Of a stretch of 64,000 nucleotides of DNA, positions 14,850 through 50,040 are shown piece after piece. A model generated the notes under the pieces. That model saw only the letters and a program-made list of their open reading frames with translations. It made no database searches and was not told the DNA's origin. The position numbers were made by a program, and so were the translations under genes. Origin of the DNA: Nostoc sp. PCC 7107 (GTDB taxonomy: Bacteria > Cyanobacteriota > Cyanobacteriia > Cyanobacteriales > Nostocaceae); NCBI RefSeq assembly GCF_000316625.1, contig NC_019676.1, positions 3,614,501 through 3,678,500 on the forward strand. Reading direction: 5' to 3'. Position 1 is the first letter of the stretch. Every line of letters begins with the position of its first letter.

Positions 14850-14878
14850 TTGACGCAAGCGATCGCTTTTGTTATCGT
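14850..14878 (+). promoter_or_regulatory. Candidate sigma-70-type promoter of the aro leader
   Basis: TTGACG at 14850-14855 and TATCGT at 14873-14878, separated by exactly 17 bases. A transcript from here would start near 14885, about 40 bases before the first leader peptide. A HIP1 octamer lies in the spacer. The -10 match is only fair. Confidence 0.4.
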
Positions 14879-14927
14879 GAAGCTCAAGGAAGCTACATAT
14901 TTAATTTTGTATCTCAGCACAGCATAT

Positions 14928-14984
14928 ATGTTCAGCCACAATTACTACTTTTATTTTTGGCGTAAGGCGGTTCACCGGGAGTGA
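14928..14984 (+). CDS. Aromatic leader peptide 1 of the DAHP synthase attenuator
   Basis: An 18-codon ORF that begins MFSHN and has six consecutive aromatic codons (YYFYFW, 14943-14960: TAC TAC TTT TAT TTT TGG), then a basic tail and TGA. It sits just upstream of an antiterminator/terminator pair and a gene of the common aromatic pathway, the classic arrangement of ribosome-mediated attenuation. The peptide itself is unlikely to have a function; translation speed through the run would be the sensor for charged tRNA-Tyr, -Phe and -Trp. No strong ribosome-binding site is visible. Confidence 0.85.
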   Translation: MFSHNYYFYFWRKAVHRE

Positions 14985-15044
14985 GTCACGTTTTCGACTG
15001 GAAACCGCCCGATGAACCGCAGAAGTCAACTCTGCGGTTTTTTT
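14967..15044 (+). promoter_or_regulatory. Attenuator 1: antiterminator/terminator switch
   Basis: Terminator: arms AACCGCAGA (15015-15023) and TCTGCGGTT (15031-15039) with a T-run to 15044. Antiterminator: GCGGTTCA-C-CGGG (14967-14979) pairs with CCCG-A-TGAACCGC (15008-15020), 12 pairs with one mismatch. The two are mutually exclusive because both use the AACCGC segment. The 5' strand lies in the last codons of leader ORF 1, so a ribosome at the stop would mask it and permit termination. GGCGGTT (14966-14972) can also pair with AACCGCC (15003-15009), which would favour termination when the leader is not translated. Confidence 0.82.
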
Positions 15045-15073
15045 GTTTTTTAGGAGCGCCCCAAGAGGGGAAG

Positions 15074-15094
15074 TCAAAAGTCAAAAGTCAAAAG
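15074..15094. repeat. Short tandem heptamer repeat (GTCAAAA)
   Basis: Three tandem copies of GTCAAAA between the two leaders. Such short tandemly repeated heptamers are typical of heterocystous cyanobacteria. They mark this spacer as a site of repeat expansion. Confidence 0.75.
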
Positions 15095-15134
15095 TATTAA
15101 ATCCCCTAAAACTTTCACCTGTTACCTATCACCT

Positions 15135-15221
15135 ATGTTTTTGAAAGTATTGAGCATGAAGACTAATTTCCACCACGGGTATTACAGCTTTTACTTTTGG
15201 CCCAGACCAAACTCCGGGTAA
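15135..15221 (+). CDS. Aromatic leader peptide 2 of the DAHP synthase attenuator
   Basis: A second short ORF ending at TAA 15219-15221. Two in-frame starts are possible: ATG 15135 (28 residues) or ATG 15156 (21 residues). It carries YYSFYFW (15180-15200), six aromatic codons in seven, almost the same order as leader 1. The residues before and after the run differ from leader 1, so the aromatic run itself is what is kept. It immediately precedes its own terminator and then the DAHP synthase start. Confidence 0.85.
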   Translation: MFLKVLSMKTNFHHGYYSFYFWPRPNSG

Positions 15222-15279
15222 ATAGCGTCATGCCAATTTGTCAGAACGCGCCCGGAACTCTCAGTTTCCGGGCTTTTTT
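15213..15279 (+). promoter_or_regulatory. Attenuator 2: antiterminator/terminator switch
   Basis: Terminator: GCCCGGAA (15250-15257) and TTCCGGGC (15266-15273) followed by six T. Antiterminator: TCCGGG (15213-15218, the last two codons of leader 2) pairs with CCCGGA (15251-15256), extended by GCGT (15225-15228) with ACGC (15246-15249). A ribosome stalled on the Trp codon (15198-15200) would just leave TCCGGG free and allow read-through into aroF; a ribosome at the stop would cover it and permit termination. Confidence 0.85.
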
Positions 15280-15313: not shown

Positions 15314-16186
15314 ATGATTAACGCCAAACTTGCCGCCCAATCTCATCCCAACCACCAAACAATTGTTAAACTCTCAGAGACAGTTGCCTTCGGTGGCGAA
15401 GAATTAGTAATTATTGGTGGCCCCTGCACAGTCGAAAGCTTAGAACAAATGGAAACAGTTGCTCAAAAGCTATCAATTTCATCAGTGCAAGGCTTACGGG
15501 GTGGTGTTTACAAACCTCGCACCTCGCCTTACGCTTTCCAGGGAATGGCAGAAGCAGGATTAGAAGTTTTAGCGAGAGTGCGATCGCTCTACAATATGCC
15601 TGTAGTTACAGAAGTTATGGCAATTTCTCAAATTGAAGTGGTCGCCGCCCATGCTGATATGCTGCAAGTTGGCAGTCGCAATATGCAAAACTTTGACTTA
15701 CTCAAAGCTTTGGGACAAGTTGATAAACCCATTTTGCTCAAACGTGGTTTAGCCGCCACCATTGAAGAATTCGTTATGGCCGCTGAATACATCCTCAGTC
15801 ACGGTAATCCTAACGTAGTGCTGTGTGAACGCGGTATTCGCAGCTTTGATAATTACACCCGCAACGTCTTAGATTTAGGTGCAGTAGTCGCCCTCAAGCA
15901 AATTACTCATTTACCTGTGATTGTAGATCCTTCCCACGCAGTCGGTAAAAGAGAACTAGTCGCACCCTTAGCCAAAGCGGCGGTAGCTTGTGGGGCAGAT
16001 GGATTAATTATTGAGTGTCACCCAGAACCCGAAAAATCCGTTTCGGATGCCCGTCAAGCATTATCTTTAGAAGACATGGTGAACTTAGTAGAAACTTTAA
16101 AGCCAGTAGCCGCCGCCGTAGGAAGGAAAACATCAGAAACAAAAGGGGTGGGTGTAAAACCTGCCCCTATTTATTGCGCGGTGTAA
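15314..16186 (+). CDS. aroF: 3-deoxy-7-phosphoheptulonate (DAHP) synthase
   Basis: A 290-residue enzyme condensing phosphoenolpyruvate and erythrose 4-phosphate to DAHP, the first step to chorismate and thus to Phe, Tyr and Trp. Motifs GGPCTVES, GLRGGVYKPRTSPYAF, LKRG and VDPSHAVGKREL match the short type I-beta form without a fused regulatory domain. The start at ATG 15314 is chosen because it follows the attenuator-2 terminator and has GGAGA at good spacing; a longer frame from 15197 would run through the terminator. With no visible allosteric domain, transcriptional attenuation may be an important control. Confidence 0.94.
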   Translation: MINAKLAAQSHPNHQTIVKLSETVAFGGEELVIIGGPCTVESLEQMETVAQKLSISSVQGLRGGVYKPRTSPYAFQGMAEAGLEVLARVRSLYNMPVVTEVMAISQIEVVAAHADMLQVGSRNMQNFDLLKALGQVDKPILLKRGLAATIEEFVMAAEYILSHGNPNVVLCERGIRSFDNYTRNVLDLGAVVALKQITHLPVIVDPSHAVGKRELVAPLAKAAVACGADGLIIECHPEPEKSVSDARQALSLEDMVNLVETLKPVAAAVGRKTSETKGVGVKPAPIYCAV

Positions 16187-20551: not shown

Positions 20552-21319
20552 TTAGCGTCTGTTACCACCACGGTAAGGCACTGCAGCAAGATAATCGATA
20601 TCAAAAGACGAGAGTCTTTGGCCGTAGTTACCACTTGGATTGATAGCTGCTGCCAAATCTGCAAACTTGCGTGGATCGCCTTCTGCAAGCCGTTTTTCTT
20701 GGGATTTGCGGCTGTAGAATTTCTCCAAAGTAAAGCGCCAGTCGGTTTGAACTGTACCTGCTTTTTCTTGGAAATCTTCGCCGTAGCGAGGTGTAACCAA
20801 GTTGTGTGGACGGTCTACCAAGCGTTTGCGTTGGTAGGGTACGGTATTTTCACCAAAGCTTTGGTTATATTCTTCGCTGTCTAATAAAGCATCAACAAAG
20901 CCGCTAAAACCTTTGGTGCCAATCACAATTGACCAAGCGATTTCTTCTTCTTTGTTGTAAGCACAACGACCTAATAAGCGTTTGAGAGTAATGTCAACTA
21001 AACGGTAGTTATTGTTGACAGAAACAACCAAACGATAGAAAGCCTCTGACTTGGCTAAACCACGGATAAAGTCACGCACAGAGATTGCGCCAGTTTTAAG
21101 TTGAGATTCTAAAGTTACTTGGCGGTTGAACTTGAGAATTTCATGTTCGCTGAAAACTTGGCGATAAGCTGCCCAAATGATGCTTTGGATATCAGTATAA
21201 GAACTGACATCTTCTATACGATAGATATAGGGTGTATTTTCATTTTGGTCAGCAACACCAAAGCTTTTCACACGGTGGTTTTGGCTGCTGGGTTTGTATT
21301 GAAGTAATGGCAGAGCCAT
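20552..21319 (-). CDS. cpcG4: Phycobilisome rod-core linker CpcG4
   Basis: A 255-residue rod-core linker with the N-terminal Pfam00427-type linker domain ([15 protein letters not shown]...[11 protein letters not shown]...LKRLLGR) and a C-terminal tail that docks rods on the allophycocyanin core. It is the fourth of four cpcG paralogues in tandem, matching the Anabaena order. Residues after about 190 differ from the other copies ([17 protein letters not shown]), which may set attachment position. No membrane segment. Confidence 0.92.
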
Positions 21320-21430
21320 GCTGCTTTTTCCTCTTATTAAAAGATTACACAGAGATTTAGTTGGTGAAAAATGAGGAGGTTTGATTACTCAAAATCCTCA
21401 CTCATGCTTTATCTATTGTCCCGCATTAGG

Positions 21431-22144
21431 TTAGAAGCCAGTATTAATTCCTAACCAATTTAGTACCAACAAGAGAGTTATTCCTGCGGACATTACCAGT
21501 AATACGGCCAATAGTGCAGTCCCATCAAGTTTCTTGCTAGATATATAAGACCAAGAATGATCACGCTCGGTCTTAACAATACCTGCACGTTCTCGATAGT
21601 CAGCACCATAGCGGGGAGTAAAGCTGAATGGTCGGTCTACGTTCATACGCTTGCGCTGATAGGGGACAGTGTAGTCACCAAAAGCTTGAGTGTATTCTTC
21701 ACTGTCAATCAGAGCATCGACAAATCCATTCCAACCGCGAGTGGCGATGTGAATAGACCAGGCTATTTCTTCTTCCCGATTGTAAGGAGCGCGACCTAAC
21801 AAACGTTTCAGACACATTTCTACCAGCCGATAGTTATTATTGGGTGTGACAACTAGCTGATAAAATCGCTCTGATTTGGCCAAACCGCGGATAAAGTCTT
21901 TAACCGTGATTGACCGATTTTTAAGTTGGGTTTCTAGGGCTATTTGGCGGTTAAATTTGAGAATTTCCTGCTCGTTGAAGACTTGGCGATAAGCTGCCCA
22001 AATTAGTCTTTCAATTTCGCTAGGAGAGTTGGCTGTTTCTATACGGTAGATATAAGGTGTATCTTCGTTAATATCTGCCGTACCAAAACTACTAACTCTT
22101 TGATTTTGAGTTGTGGGTTTGTATTCGAGTAAAGGTAATGCCAT
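21431..22144 (-). CDS. cpcG3: CpcG3/CpcL-type linker with C-terminal membrane anchor
   Basis: A 237-residue linker. Residues 1-190 are the standard linker domain. The C-terminus instead ends in a hydrophobic segment ([20 protein letters not shown]), as in CpcL. In Anabaena the CpcL-type protein at this position holds membrane-bound phycocyanin rods that feed photosystem I rather than the allophycocyanin core. The same role is inferred here. It is the third of the four tandem copies. Confidence 0.92.
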
Positions 22145-22362
22145 ACTAAAGACCGCCTTGAGAATAAGGTTGGCATCTTATACCCAGTCCGTCTGTACCA
22201 TTTTGGATTTTAGATTTTAAATCTATGATTTTTTCCAATTGGTATGAGTTACTTTTAATTGATGATTGAGTAACTCGACGGAAAACATTTAGAAGGTTGT
22301 GAGTTGGCTATTGCAAACAATAATCCTTCTTATACCTTTATCAAACCACTGAAAAAAAGCCC

Positions 22363-23106
22363 TTACCGCACGGGGAAATTAGCACTGGAATTGATAGACA
22401 CCGGAATACCTTGGGGTACGGTTTCTCTGCTGGTGTCGGGAATTTTGATGTTGGCTAGGTTAACCGGTGTATAGGTGACGGTTCTAATATTGATGGAATT
22501 AGCCAAAGCCAAGAAGTTTTTGATGTCGCCTTCTATATAGCGAGCATCTTCTAATTTGTCGCGCCAGTAGTTACCGTAGCGAGGGGTGACTAGGTTAAAA
22601 GGTCTATCTTTATAGCGGCGGCGTTGGTAAGGAACTATATTTTCGCCAAAGTTGGTGAGATATTCTTCAGAGTCGATTAAAGCATCAACAAAACCATCCC
22701 AACCAGCAGTTGCTATTTTGATTGACCAAGCAATTTCTTCATCTTTATTATAAGGCGCACGACCTAAAAACCTTTTGAGGGCAATTTCTACTAAACGGTA
22801 GTTAGAGTTTGTCTCGATGACTAAAGTCCGAAAAGCTTCAGACTTGGCTAAACCCCGAATGAAGTCACGCACAGTAATGGCGCGGTTTTTTACCTGAGAT
22901 TCTAAGTTGTCTTGGCGGAAGAATTTCAGGATTTCGTGTTCGCTAAATACTTGCCGATAGGCTGCCCAAATTAATTCTTGAACATCACTATTCTCAGCGC
23001 AGTTTTCTATGCGATAGGGACGGGGGGTATTTTCGTTAGGAATTTCGTAACCAGGGACGCGCTGGTTTTGCGAACTGGGTTTGTATTCTAGTAGAGGTAT
23101 TGCCAT
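22363..23106 (-). CDS. cpcG2: Phycobilisome rod-core linker CpcG2
   Basis: A 247-residue rod-core linker with the N-terminal linker domain ([23 protein letters not shown]) and a soluble C-terminal core-binding tail ending in a Pro/Ser-rich stretch. The tail contains YTPVNLANIKIPDTSRE, shared with CpcG1 (DMKIPDTSRE), so these two are the closest pair. It attaches rods to the core. Confidence 0.92.
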   Translation of the reverse strand: MAIPLLEYKPSSQNQRVPGYEIPNENTPRPYRIENCAENSDVQELIWAAYRQVFSEHEILKFFRQDNLESQVKNRAITVRDFIRGLAKSEAFRTLVIETNSNYRLVEIALKRFLGRAPYNKDEEIAWSIKIATAGWDGFVDALIDSEEYLTNFGENIVPYQRRRYKDRPFNLVTPRYGNYWRDKLEDARYIEGDIKNFLALANSINIRTVTYTPVNLANIKIPDTSRETVPQGIPVSINSSANFPVR

Positions 23107-23129
23107 AGTTTTAGGGTTTTGTCATTGGT

Positions 23130-23163
23130 CATGAAAAAAGTCTGAAGTCTGAAGTCTGAAGTC
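23130..23163. repeat. Short tandem heptamer repeat (GTCTGAA) between cpcG1 and cpcG2
   Basis: Three full tandem copies of GTCTGAA and a partial one, followed by a small palindromic segment (CGCCTTTGGCG). Such heptamers are typical of heterocystous cyanobacteria. They lie in a 144-base gap inside the cluster. Confidence 0.75.
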
Positions 23164-23250
23164 TATTCGCCTTTGGCGTTCCCGCAGGGTAGTCTGAAAT
23201 TTAATATTTCTCTTTCTACCTTTTGACTTTTAACTTTTACCTTTTGCCTT

Positions 23251-24090
23251 CTAGGTTGTCTTAGTGCCAGCAAGATAACGGTAAGGTAGGGCAACGGCTG
23301 TGGGTTTAACTGTTGGTTGCGGAGTCCCACCTTCACGGCTGGTATCGGGAATCTTCATGTCTCTGATTTGGGAGACAACGGAAGCGGTTACGCGTTGATA
23401 ATTACGTTCGTTGGTAATTATGTTTCCAGCCATTGCCATGAAGTTGCTGGGAATAACGCGTCGAATTTCTTCTTTGGTGGCATAACCTGTGGTACGCGCA
23501 CTGTAGAATGAACGACCACCCAGGAAGGTCATGGTCTGGCGATCGCGCCAGTAACCGTTATAGCGTGGGTTAACTAAGTTAAAGGGTCTGTCTTTGAAGC
23601 GACGGCGTTGGTAAGGTACAATGTCTTCACCAAAGTTTTGTTGATATTCGTCGCTGTCTAGCAATGCGTCGATAAACCCATGTAAGCCCTTGGTGGCAAT
23701 GACAATTGACCAGGCAATTTCCTCATCTTTATTATAGGCTGCGCGTCCTAAGAAGCGTTTTAAGATGATGTCAACTAAACGGTAGTTGGAGTTGATATCT
23801 GCTACCTGTGTGCGGAAGACTTCAGATTTACCCAATCCGCGGATAAAATCTCGCACGTTAATCGCCCGATTCCGTAGTTGTGATTCTAAGAAGGATTGGC
23901 GATTGCTTTTGATAATTAAATGTTCGCTGAAGATTTGGCGATATGCTGCCCAGATGATGGCATCAATATCTTTATCGTCAGTGGCAGCAGATAAGCGATA
24001 ACTAATTGGAGTGTCTTCGTTAGGTACTTCGTAACCTTCTACCCGCTGGTTTTGGGAACTTGGTGAATATTCAAGTAATGGTATTGACAT
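23251..24090 (-). CDS. cpcG1: Phycobilisome rod-core linker CpcG1
   Basis: A 279-residue rod-core linker, the longest of the four. The N-terminal linker domain (YEVPNEDTPISYRLS...AAYRQIFSEHLII) is followed by a longer C-terminal part with ITNERNYQRVTASVVSQIRDMKIPDTSRE. In Anabaena CpcG1 is a main linker of core-attached rods. It lies directly after cpcF. Confidence 0.92.
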   Translation of the reverse strand: MSIPLLEYSPSSQNQRVEGYEVPNEDTPISYRLSAATDDKDIDAIIWAAYRQIFSEHLIIKSNRQSFLESQLRNRAINVRDFIRGLGKSEVFRTQVADINSNYRLVDIILKRFLGRAAYNKDEEIAWSIVIATKGLHGFIDALLDSDEYQQNFGEDIVPYQRRRFKDRPFNLVNPRYNGYWRDRQTMTFLGGRSFYSARTTGYATKEEIRRVIPSNFMAMAGNIITNERNYQRVTASVVSQIRDMKIPDTSREGGTPQPTVKPTAVALPYRYLAGTKTT

Positions 24091-49968: not shown

Positions 49969-50040
49969 AGCGGGCGATGGGACTCGAACCCACGACGTTC
50001 ACCTTGGGAAGGTGACATTCTACCACTGAATTACACCCGC
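49969..50040 (-). tRNA. tRNA-Gly (CCC)
   Basis: The minus strand reads GCGGGTG for the acceptor start, a full cloverleaf with D-arm AGTGGTAG, anticodon stem TCACC/GGTGA with loop TTCCCAA (anticodon CCC), and T-arm GTGGGTTCGAGTCCCAT. The acceptor closes with CGCCCGC and one G-U pair. CCA is not encoded. Confidence 0.96.

Follow-up and report, generated by a model that had tools for sequence, protein, structure and literature searches.

Ribosome-mediated transcription attenuation has been described for the trp and phe leaders (PMC11802643) and for the his leader (PMC9413887). Such leaders consist of a short open reading frame (ORF) with codons for the amino acid that is produced, an antiterminator and a terminator that exclude each other, and a ribosome whose position is the switch. 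Closer in gene content, the aroF leader of Corynebacterium glutamicum (aroR) contains Phe-Tyr-Phe (PMC4046766), and its readthrough is reported to go up on Phe limitation, with Tyr having no effect, a result ascribed to Neshat et al. 2014 (PMC11802643). In Acholeplasma, a candidate upstream ORF of aroF (motif uORFC-13-1) contains one or more Phe codons and has a terminator next to it (PMC8632094). Closer in layout, the Salmonella mgtCBR leader is described as having two short ORFs that act as tandem attenuators, with ATP and proline tRNA as additive signals (PMC3641672). As for cyanobacteria and tenericutes, a 2016 paper noted no reliable data on attenuation (PMC4833913), and our own full-text literature searches, with subscription papers mostly outside their scope, turned up no cyanobacterial aro attenuator.

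In the 64-kb stretch of Nostoc sp. PCC 7107 DNA analysed here (the window), two short aromatic-rich ORFs, leaders 1 and 2, stand in series before aroF, and together they very probably constitute a two-stage ribosome-mediated transcription attenuator. This reading is based on the anatomy of the leaders, their conservation, two competing and covarying pairings at each stage and the link to aroF. From these we infer the regulation itself, including the start site, translation, stalling, termination, the direction and size of the response and a multiplicative effect of the two stages.

The locus resembles the trp, phe and his leaders in the three features listed above, and several elements of the trp and phe kind recur in it: an aromatic-rich ORF, a terminator before the gene, an antiterminator that shares an arm with that terminator and, in a cut-transcript model, a 5′ antiterminator strand (A) whose availability depends on ribosome position. 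As far as the accounts of those leaders go, it differs from them in that the 5′ strand of the antiterminator is contained in the final codons, where a ribosome at the stop codon covers it, that two complete attenuators stand in series, that nearly every leader carries all three aromatics, that the gene encodes the common first enzyme, and that the host is a cyanobacterium. It is like aroR of C. glutamicum, by description, in having a leader peptide with aromatic residues upstream of a 3-deoxy-7-phosphoheptulonate (DAHP) synthase gene, whereas for aroR one leader is described, with three aromatic residues and no Trp. With uORFC-13-1 it shares an upstream ORF and a terminator before aroF (PMC8632094), although that motif is single, has Phe only as described, and is confined to Acholeplasma and environmental sequences. 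Like mgtCBR it has two short ORFs in one leader and attenuators in tandem, but both leaders carry aromatic codons, in contrast to the different signals described for mgtCBR. The kind of mechanism is thus known; what appears to be new, as far as our searches show, is the phylum, the presence of two aromatic attenuators in series, the use of all three aromatics and the depth of conservation.

Anatomy of the aroF leader region

Leader 1 (14928–14984, plus strand, as are all features of this region) begins with ATG at 14928, ends with TGA at 14982–14984 and encodes in 18 codons the peptide MFSHNYYFYFWRKAVHRE, in which six consecutive aromatic codons (YYFYFW) occupy 14943–14960. Its final codons contain A1, the 5′ strand of antiterminator 1 (14967–14979, GCGGTTCACCGGG), which pairs at 12 of 13 positions in the window with the 3′ strand, C1 (15008–15020, CCCGATGAACCGC). 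C1 in turn overlaps the 5′ arm of an intrinsic terminator (terminator 1, 15015–15051, score 26.5), giving base triples A1/C1/D1. In this terminator AACCGCAGA (15015–15023) pairs with TCTGCGGTT (15031–15039) and T-runs occupy 15038–15051; formation of antiterminator 1 removes 15015–15020 from the 5′ arm. A further strand, B1 (15003–15009), is a weak candidate for an alternative partner of 14966–14972, that is, for an anti-antiterminator.

An earlier note on this DNA had described here an 18-codon ORF with a YYFYFW run, followed by a terminator and a competing antiterminator of 12 pairs that share bases, and we find both as described. It had placed only the 5′ half of the antiterminator in the last codons of the ORF, whereas the entire 5′ strand lies there. 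It called this the first leader and judged it singly, whereas leaders 1 and 2 very probably make up one two-stage device.

Leader 2 (15156–15221) encodes MKTNFHHGYYSFYFWPRPNSG. The 5′ strand of antiterminator 2, A2 (15212–15219), comprises its last codons and part of its stop, and has one mismatch in the window genome; the 3′ strand, C2 (15250–15257), lies within the 5′ arm of terminator 2 (15250–15279, score 26.2), in which 15250–15258 pairs with 15265–15273 ahead of a T-run at 15274–15279. The innermost pair of terminator 2 is non-standard in the window. Next comes aroF (15314–16186), whose 290-residue product is assigned as DAHP synthase by NCBIfam models NF006421 (400.8 bits) and TIGR01361 (362.2 bits), both above cut-off. 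Elsewhere in this genome, which is a single contig of 6.33 Mb, a further DAHP synthase is encoded that is 53% identical.

Upstream of leader 1 we find a candidate promoter (14850–14877) with a −35 element TTGACG (14850–14855) and a −10 element TTATCG (14872–14877) separated by a spacer of 16. Of the 166 aroF upstream regions compared below, 162 have TTGAC in the 130 nt that precede leader 1, mostly 55–95 nt ahead of the start, as against 14% in mononucleotide-shuffled sequence.

Two minor features of the region may be recorded. The gap between the leader 1 stop and the leader 2 start is 171 nt in the window, compared with a median of 85, and the window carries AAGTCAAAAGTC repeats at 15052–15155 that look like an insertion. 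A GTCATGC-like motif, seen in the alignment consensus, follows the leader 2 stop (15222–15249), and the helices that we tested do not explain it.

Conservation and modular loss of the leaders

We compared 166 aroF upstream regions: that of the window, those of 76 loci and those of 89 class genomes (29 loci and 60 stretches). The 76 loci derive from 80 kept out of 348 confirmed relatives, less four (L032, L042, L059, L064) whose upstream DNA was too short, and the class genomes from a sample of 291 genomes drawn from Cyanobacteriia. The regions are partly non-independent, comprising 160 and 163 distinct sequences for the two leaders, and the two collections may share some species. The class genomes span 15 family labels, as assigned by the tool (f1, f4, f6, f10, f13, f14, f17, f21, f23, f26, f29, f34, f35, f36, f37).

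Leader 1 was present in all 166 regions and leader 2 in all but one (165), and a terminator-like hairpin came after each; the leaders of six loci (L045, L099, L113, L117, L148, L169) were settled by eye or by hand, with L113 and L117 counted with a displaced start. Because the terminator finder always reports its best hairpin, so that a hit alone is no evidence, scores were set against 426 sampled 110-base background segments, 0.9% of which scored 24 or more and 2.3% at least 19. Scores of at least 24 were obtained for 152 of 166 hairpins after leader 1 and 140 of 165 after leader 2, the lowest being 20.3 and 19.2, respectively.

The single region that lacks leader 2 (L171) belongs to family f21, and the five f21 genomes with a listed AroF (L262–L266) have leader 1 alone. 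In a quick AroF tree of 63 sequences, with weak support for 29 of its 59 inner branches, f21 is nested among groups with both leaders, suggesting that f21 lost leader 2. Conversely, genome G230 (f26, L275) has leader 2 alone, by eye behind a TTGAC promoter-like sequence. Losses are thus modular, in that either stage can be lost, and the two-stage layout together with such independent losses would offer a natural experiment on the contribution of a second attenuator.

Competing pairings and their covariation

Covariation was assessed in alignments of 95 leader 1 and 96 leader 2 sequences. The A1:C1 helix was paired in 87.6% of cells (n = 95), compared with 81.5% in shuffles and 28–48% in slid controls, a comparison that favours the helices over the slid controls, here and below, as they were defined from the window sequence. 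Double-change cells numbered 81 in A1:C1 as against 31 in shuffles, and its two outermost pairs were unpaired in about half of the sequences. In an alignment-free comparison, the own C1 partner outdid the average of swapped partners in 84 of the 87 sequences from the class and in 142 of 160 overall. Terminator 1 was paired in 99.6% of cells (slid controls 32–60%), with changes on both sides in six of its nine pairs, one of the nine having letters in a single sequence only.

The second stage behaves similarly on several measures. A2:C2 was paired in 93.5% of cells (slid controls 11–65%), with 45 double-change cells compared with 15 in shuffles, and swapped partners were on average worse than the own one in 73 of the 86 sequences from the class and in 124 of all 163; terminator 2 (C2:D2) was paired in 92.7% of cells (slid controls 16–61%), with 58 double changes compared with 25. 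For A2:C2 and C2:D2, measures based on the number of pairs or of pair types are no higher than in shuffles. As judged from these alignments, A1:C1, C1:D1, A2:C2 and C2:D2 covary, and in both leaders the A:C helix overlaps the C:D helix. Column 78 of the leader 1 alignment, in C1, has G for A in 15 of 95 sequences and keeps pairing in both structures each time, G-U being counted. For B1, which had seemed promising by eye, swapped partners did worse than the own one in 56 of the 87 sequences from the class (p 0.001) and in 116 of all 160; it paired in 66% of cells, yet a slide of −3 gives 65%.

These pairings bear on one alternative, which is that the terminated leader RNAs are released as regulatory small RNAs, or the leaders as peptides, that act on other genes besides or instead of attenuation in cis. 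Leader 1 RNA would be about 160–170 nt long with a strong terminator, and trp leaders in rhizobia act as trans-acting attenuator RNAs, both of which count in favour of this alternative. Pairing in cis, however, already accounts for the conserved leader ends, and we regard a role in trans as unlikely.

Aromatic codons of the leaders

Phe, Tyr and Trp codons are all present in 163 of 166 copies of leader 1 and in 161 of 165 of leader 2. Within the run the three residues interchange and synonymous codons vary, whereas the codons of the A strand are, because of the pairing, nearly fixed as DNA (in leader 1, GTT and CAC each in 72 of 89 class sequences). The distance that separates the final aromatic codon from the stop is most often six codons in both leaders (110 of 166 and 138 of 165). 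The prediction of the earlier note that relatives should retain the aromatic run and the paired arms with compensatory changes was borne out: leader 1 is universal in our regions, its three aromatics are nearly so, and antiterminator and terminator helices covary. The conserved run and the covarying pairings likewise lend support to the note's proposal of ribosome-mediated attenuation for aromatic amino acids, which would operate in the cell as set out below.

The same codons speak to a second alternative, in which the nascent peptide itself senses free aromatics or another ligand and stalls the ribosome, as arrest peptides of the TnaC kind do. Such a peptide might be suspected from the recurrent cores YFYFW and FYFW and from the common C-terminal residues VH (leader 1) and SG (leader 2). 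Yet the order and identity of the aromatic residues vary widely, with 36 distinct longest runs in leader 1 and 20 in leader 2, and fixed critical residues were not found. Moreover, the common C-terminal residues fall where the RNA pairing strand lies, and this strand covaries with its partner; some f23 copies of leader 2 end in SGLW, yet by eye an earlier stretch of them still matches the C strand. Residues that are kept while their order changes are what one expects of codon reading rather than of an arrest peptide, which we therefore hold to be very improbable.

Ribosome position and the choice between structures

For the two-stage attenuator, we propose that RNA polymerase would start near 14885 and transcribe leader 1; past terminator 1 it would have to traverse the second leader and its terminator before reaching aroF. 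With charged Phe, Tyr and Trp tRNAs in good supply, the ribosome would reach the stop codon and cover A, leaving C free to form the terminator. A shortage of any one of them would stall the ribosome in the aromatic run, A would pair with C before the 3′ terminator arm exists, and the polymerase would proceed. As both stages must be passed, leakage would multiply down and induction would be steep. With moderate confidence, we go further and regard the device as a serial gate composed of two complete attenuators, which would be the ancestral state for this AroF-type DAHP synthase in Cyanobacteriia; aroF would be reached only if both leaders stall ribosomes, and the gate would multiply repression and may weigh shortages differently. 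The proposed attenuator would be a deeply conserved case of cyanobacterial attenuation, implying coupled transcription and translation, and a handle on how cyanobacteria may control entry into the shikimate pathway, which could be useful for production of aromatic compounds in such hosts.

We modelled ribosome position on transcripts cut ahead of the 3′ terminator arm, with the ribosome covering 9 or 12 nt past the A-site codon. When it stalled on the first aromatic codon or the middle one, 11.5–13.5 A1:C1 and 9.2–9.5 A2:C2 pairs remained on average, and a ribosome at the stop codon left none. With a stall at the last aromatic codon, which already covers much of A1, 5.0–7.9 A1:C1 pairs remained, few of them in the terminator arm, together with 6.5–8.1 A2:C2 pairs. 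In the window, where that codon is Trp in both leaders, such a stall left 3.0 or 0.1 A pairs in the terminator 1 arm (for the two footprints) and 6.9 in the terminator 2 arm; since more remain in the latter, leader 2 may be the main reader of Trp.

Folding at full length points in the same direction, with mean terminator probability rising from 0.66–0.72 to about 0.95 for leader 1, and from 0.57–0.66 to 0.92 for leader 2, as the ribosome nears the stop. This probability exceeds one half for most sequences in every ribosome state, and for the window equilibrium folding at full length does not separate the ribosome states at all (P 0.83–0.94 throughout). Given that the equilibrium favours the terminator in the window, antitermination would need co-transcriptional timing, with A:C formed before the 3′ arm is made.

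When no ribosome was placed on the cut transcripts, 13.2 A1:C1 and 6.2 A2:C2 pairs formed, so the modelled antiterminator forms without translation, as might be expected were the region under translation-independent control by a riboswitch, a T-box or an RNA-binding protein, with incidental ORFs. Against such control stand the in-frame aromatic codons kept in both leaders, and a cmscan search of the window against Rfam at gathering thresholds, in which the sole match was a tRNA (49969–50040) and none fell at the leaders; we give this alternative very little credence. Within the attenuation model, ribosome-free A1:C1 pairing could be prevented by the B strand, a role for which the support is weak.

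Association of leader 1 with aroF

For leader 1 a covariance model (R1) was built, and most of the genomes later searched had served in its training. It matched 111 of the 291 class genomes, once each. In 106 of the 107 genomes with a listed AroF of at least 63% identity, the R1 match was on the same contig and within 1.2 kb of the AroF start. Among the 17 of these 107 not directly examined beforehand, R1 matched in 16, the miss being G230. Five matches fell outside the AroF list: in G109 aroF is present, in G261 an AroF fragment is on another contig, in G128 the contig ends past both leaders, in G116 (L256, C48) leader 1 stands ahead of a broken aroF, and G122 (L257, C221) has a leader 1 relic with no recognisable terminator or aroF. 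None of the 111 class-genome matches was shown to lie at a gene other than aroF. In a draw of 146 genomes across the phylum, R1 matched 19, all of the same class or closer.

That the short ORFs instead encode functional small proteins, with terminators downstream by coincidence, is most improbable: they are kept across many families and their starts as called are ATG in 161 of 166 copies of leader 1 and 149 of 165 of leader 2, but their N-terminal parts and lengths vary while the aromatic class and the RNA pairing are retained, and where aroF is broken or gone (G116, G122) leader 1 is seen solely as a remnant.

Chance expectation and other loci

The window contains four ATG ORFs of up to 45 residues with five aromatics in seven codons, and only after leader 1 and leader 2 (15156) does a terminator score at least 24. 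Across the whole genome, the pattern of four Phe or Tyr codons plus TGG has 30 matches, and of the short ORFs at these places only leader 1 and that at L210 begin with ATG and are followed, after the stop, by a hairpin under −10 kcal/mol; the latter, being antisense inside a 408-residue ORF, was rejected as a further aromatic leader. A broader aromatic pattern has 200 matches, about twice the reversed control (103), and among the 100 places listed, with 30 loci scanned, there were only weak candidates. These scans of the genome demand dense aromatics, and weaker leaders would escape them.

Several other candidates were considered and not counted. At genes for chorismate-binding enzymes (L172–L174), L172 and L173 hold TTG or GTG ORFs on the opposite strand with hairpins of −12.6 and −14.7. 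The second DAHP synthase gene (L002) has a short MAKRRKWW (−11.4) and, on the other strand, an ORF (−12.5), both weak, and prephenate dehydratase (L282) has MTIPKTVLAFWW with a weak hairpin of −2.5.

When the regions ahead of 20 other DAHP synthase genes were scanned, only G020 had both an aromatic ORF and a hairpin under −10. That gene (L254/L259, C15) encodes a different DAHP synthase, 53% identical, and has a single aromatic leader, MKNSQFWYSFTFRSATGVRHRSG (L259, 243–314), followed by a strong hairpin and a T-run; it is possibly an independent attenuator. Elsewhere in the window, four similar ORFs lie in a row on the minus strand (20552–24090), and these presumably resemble phycobilisome rod-core linkers.
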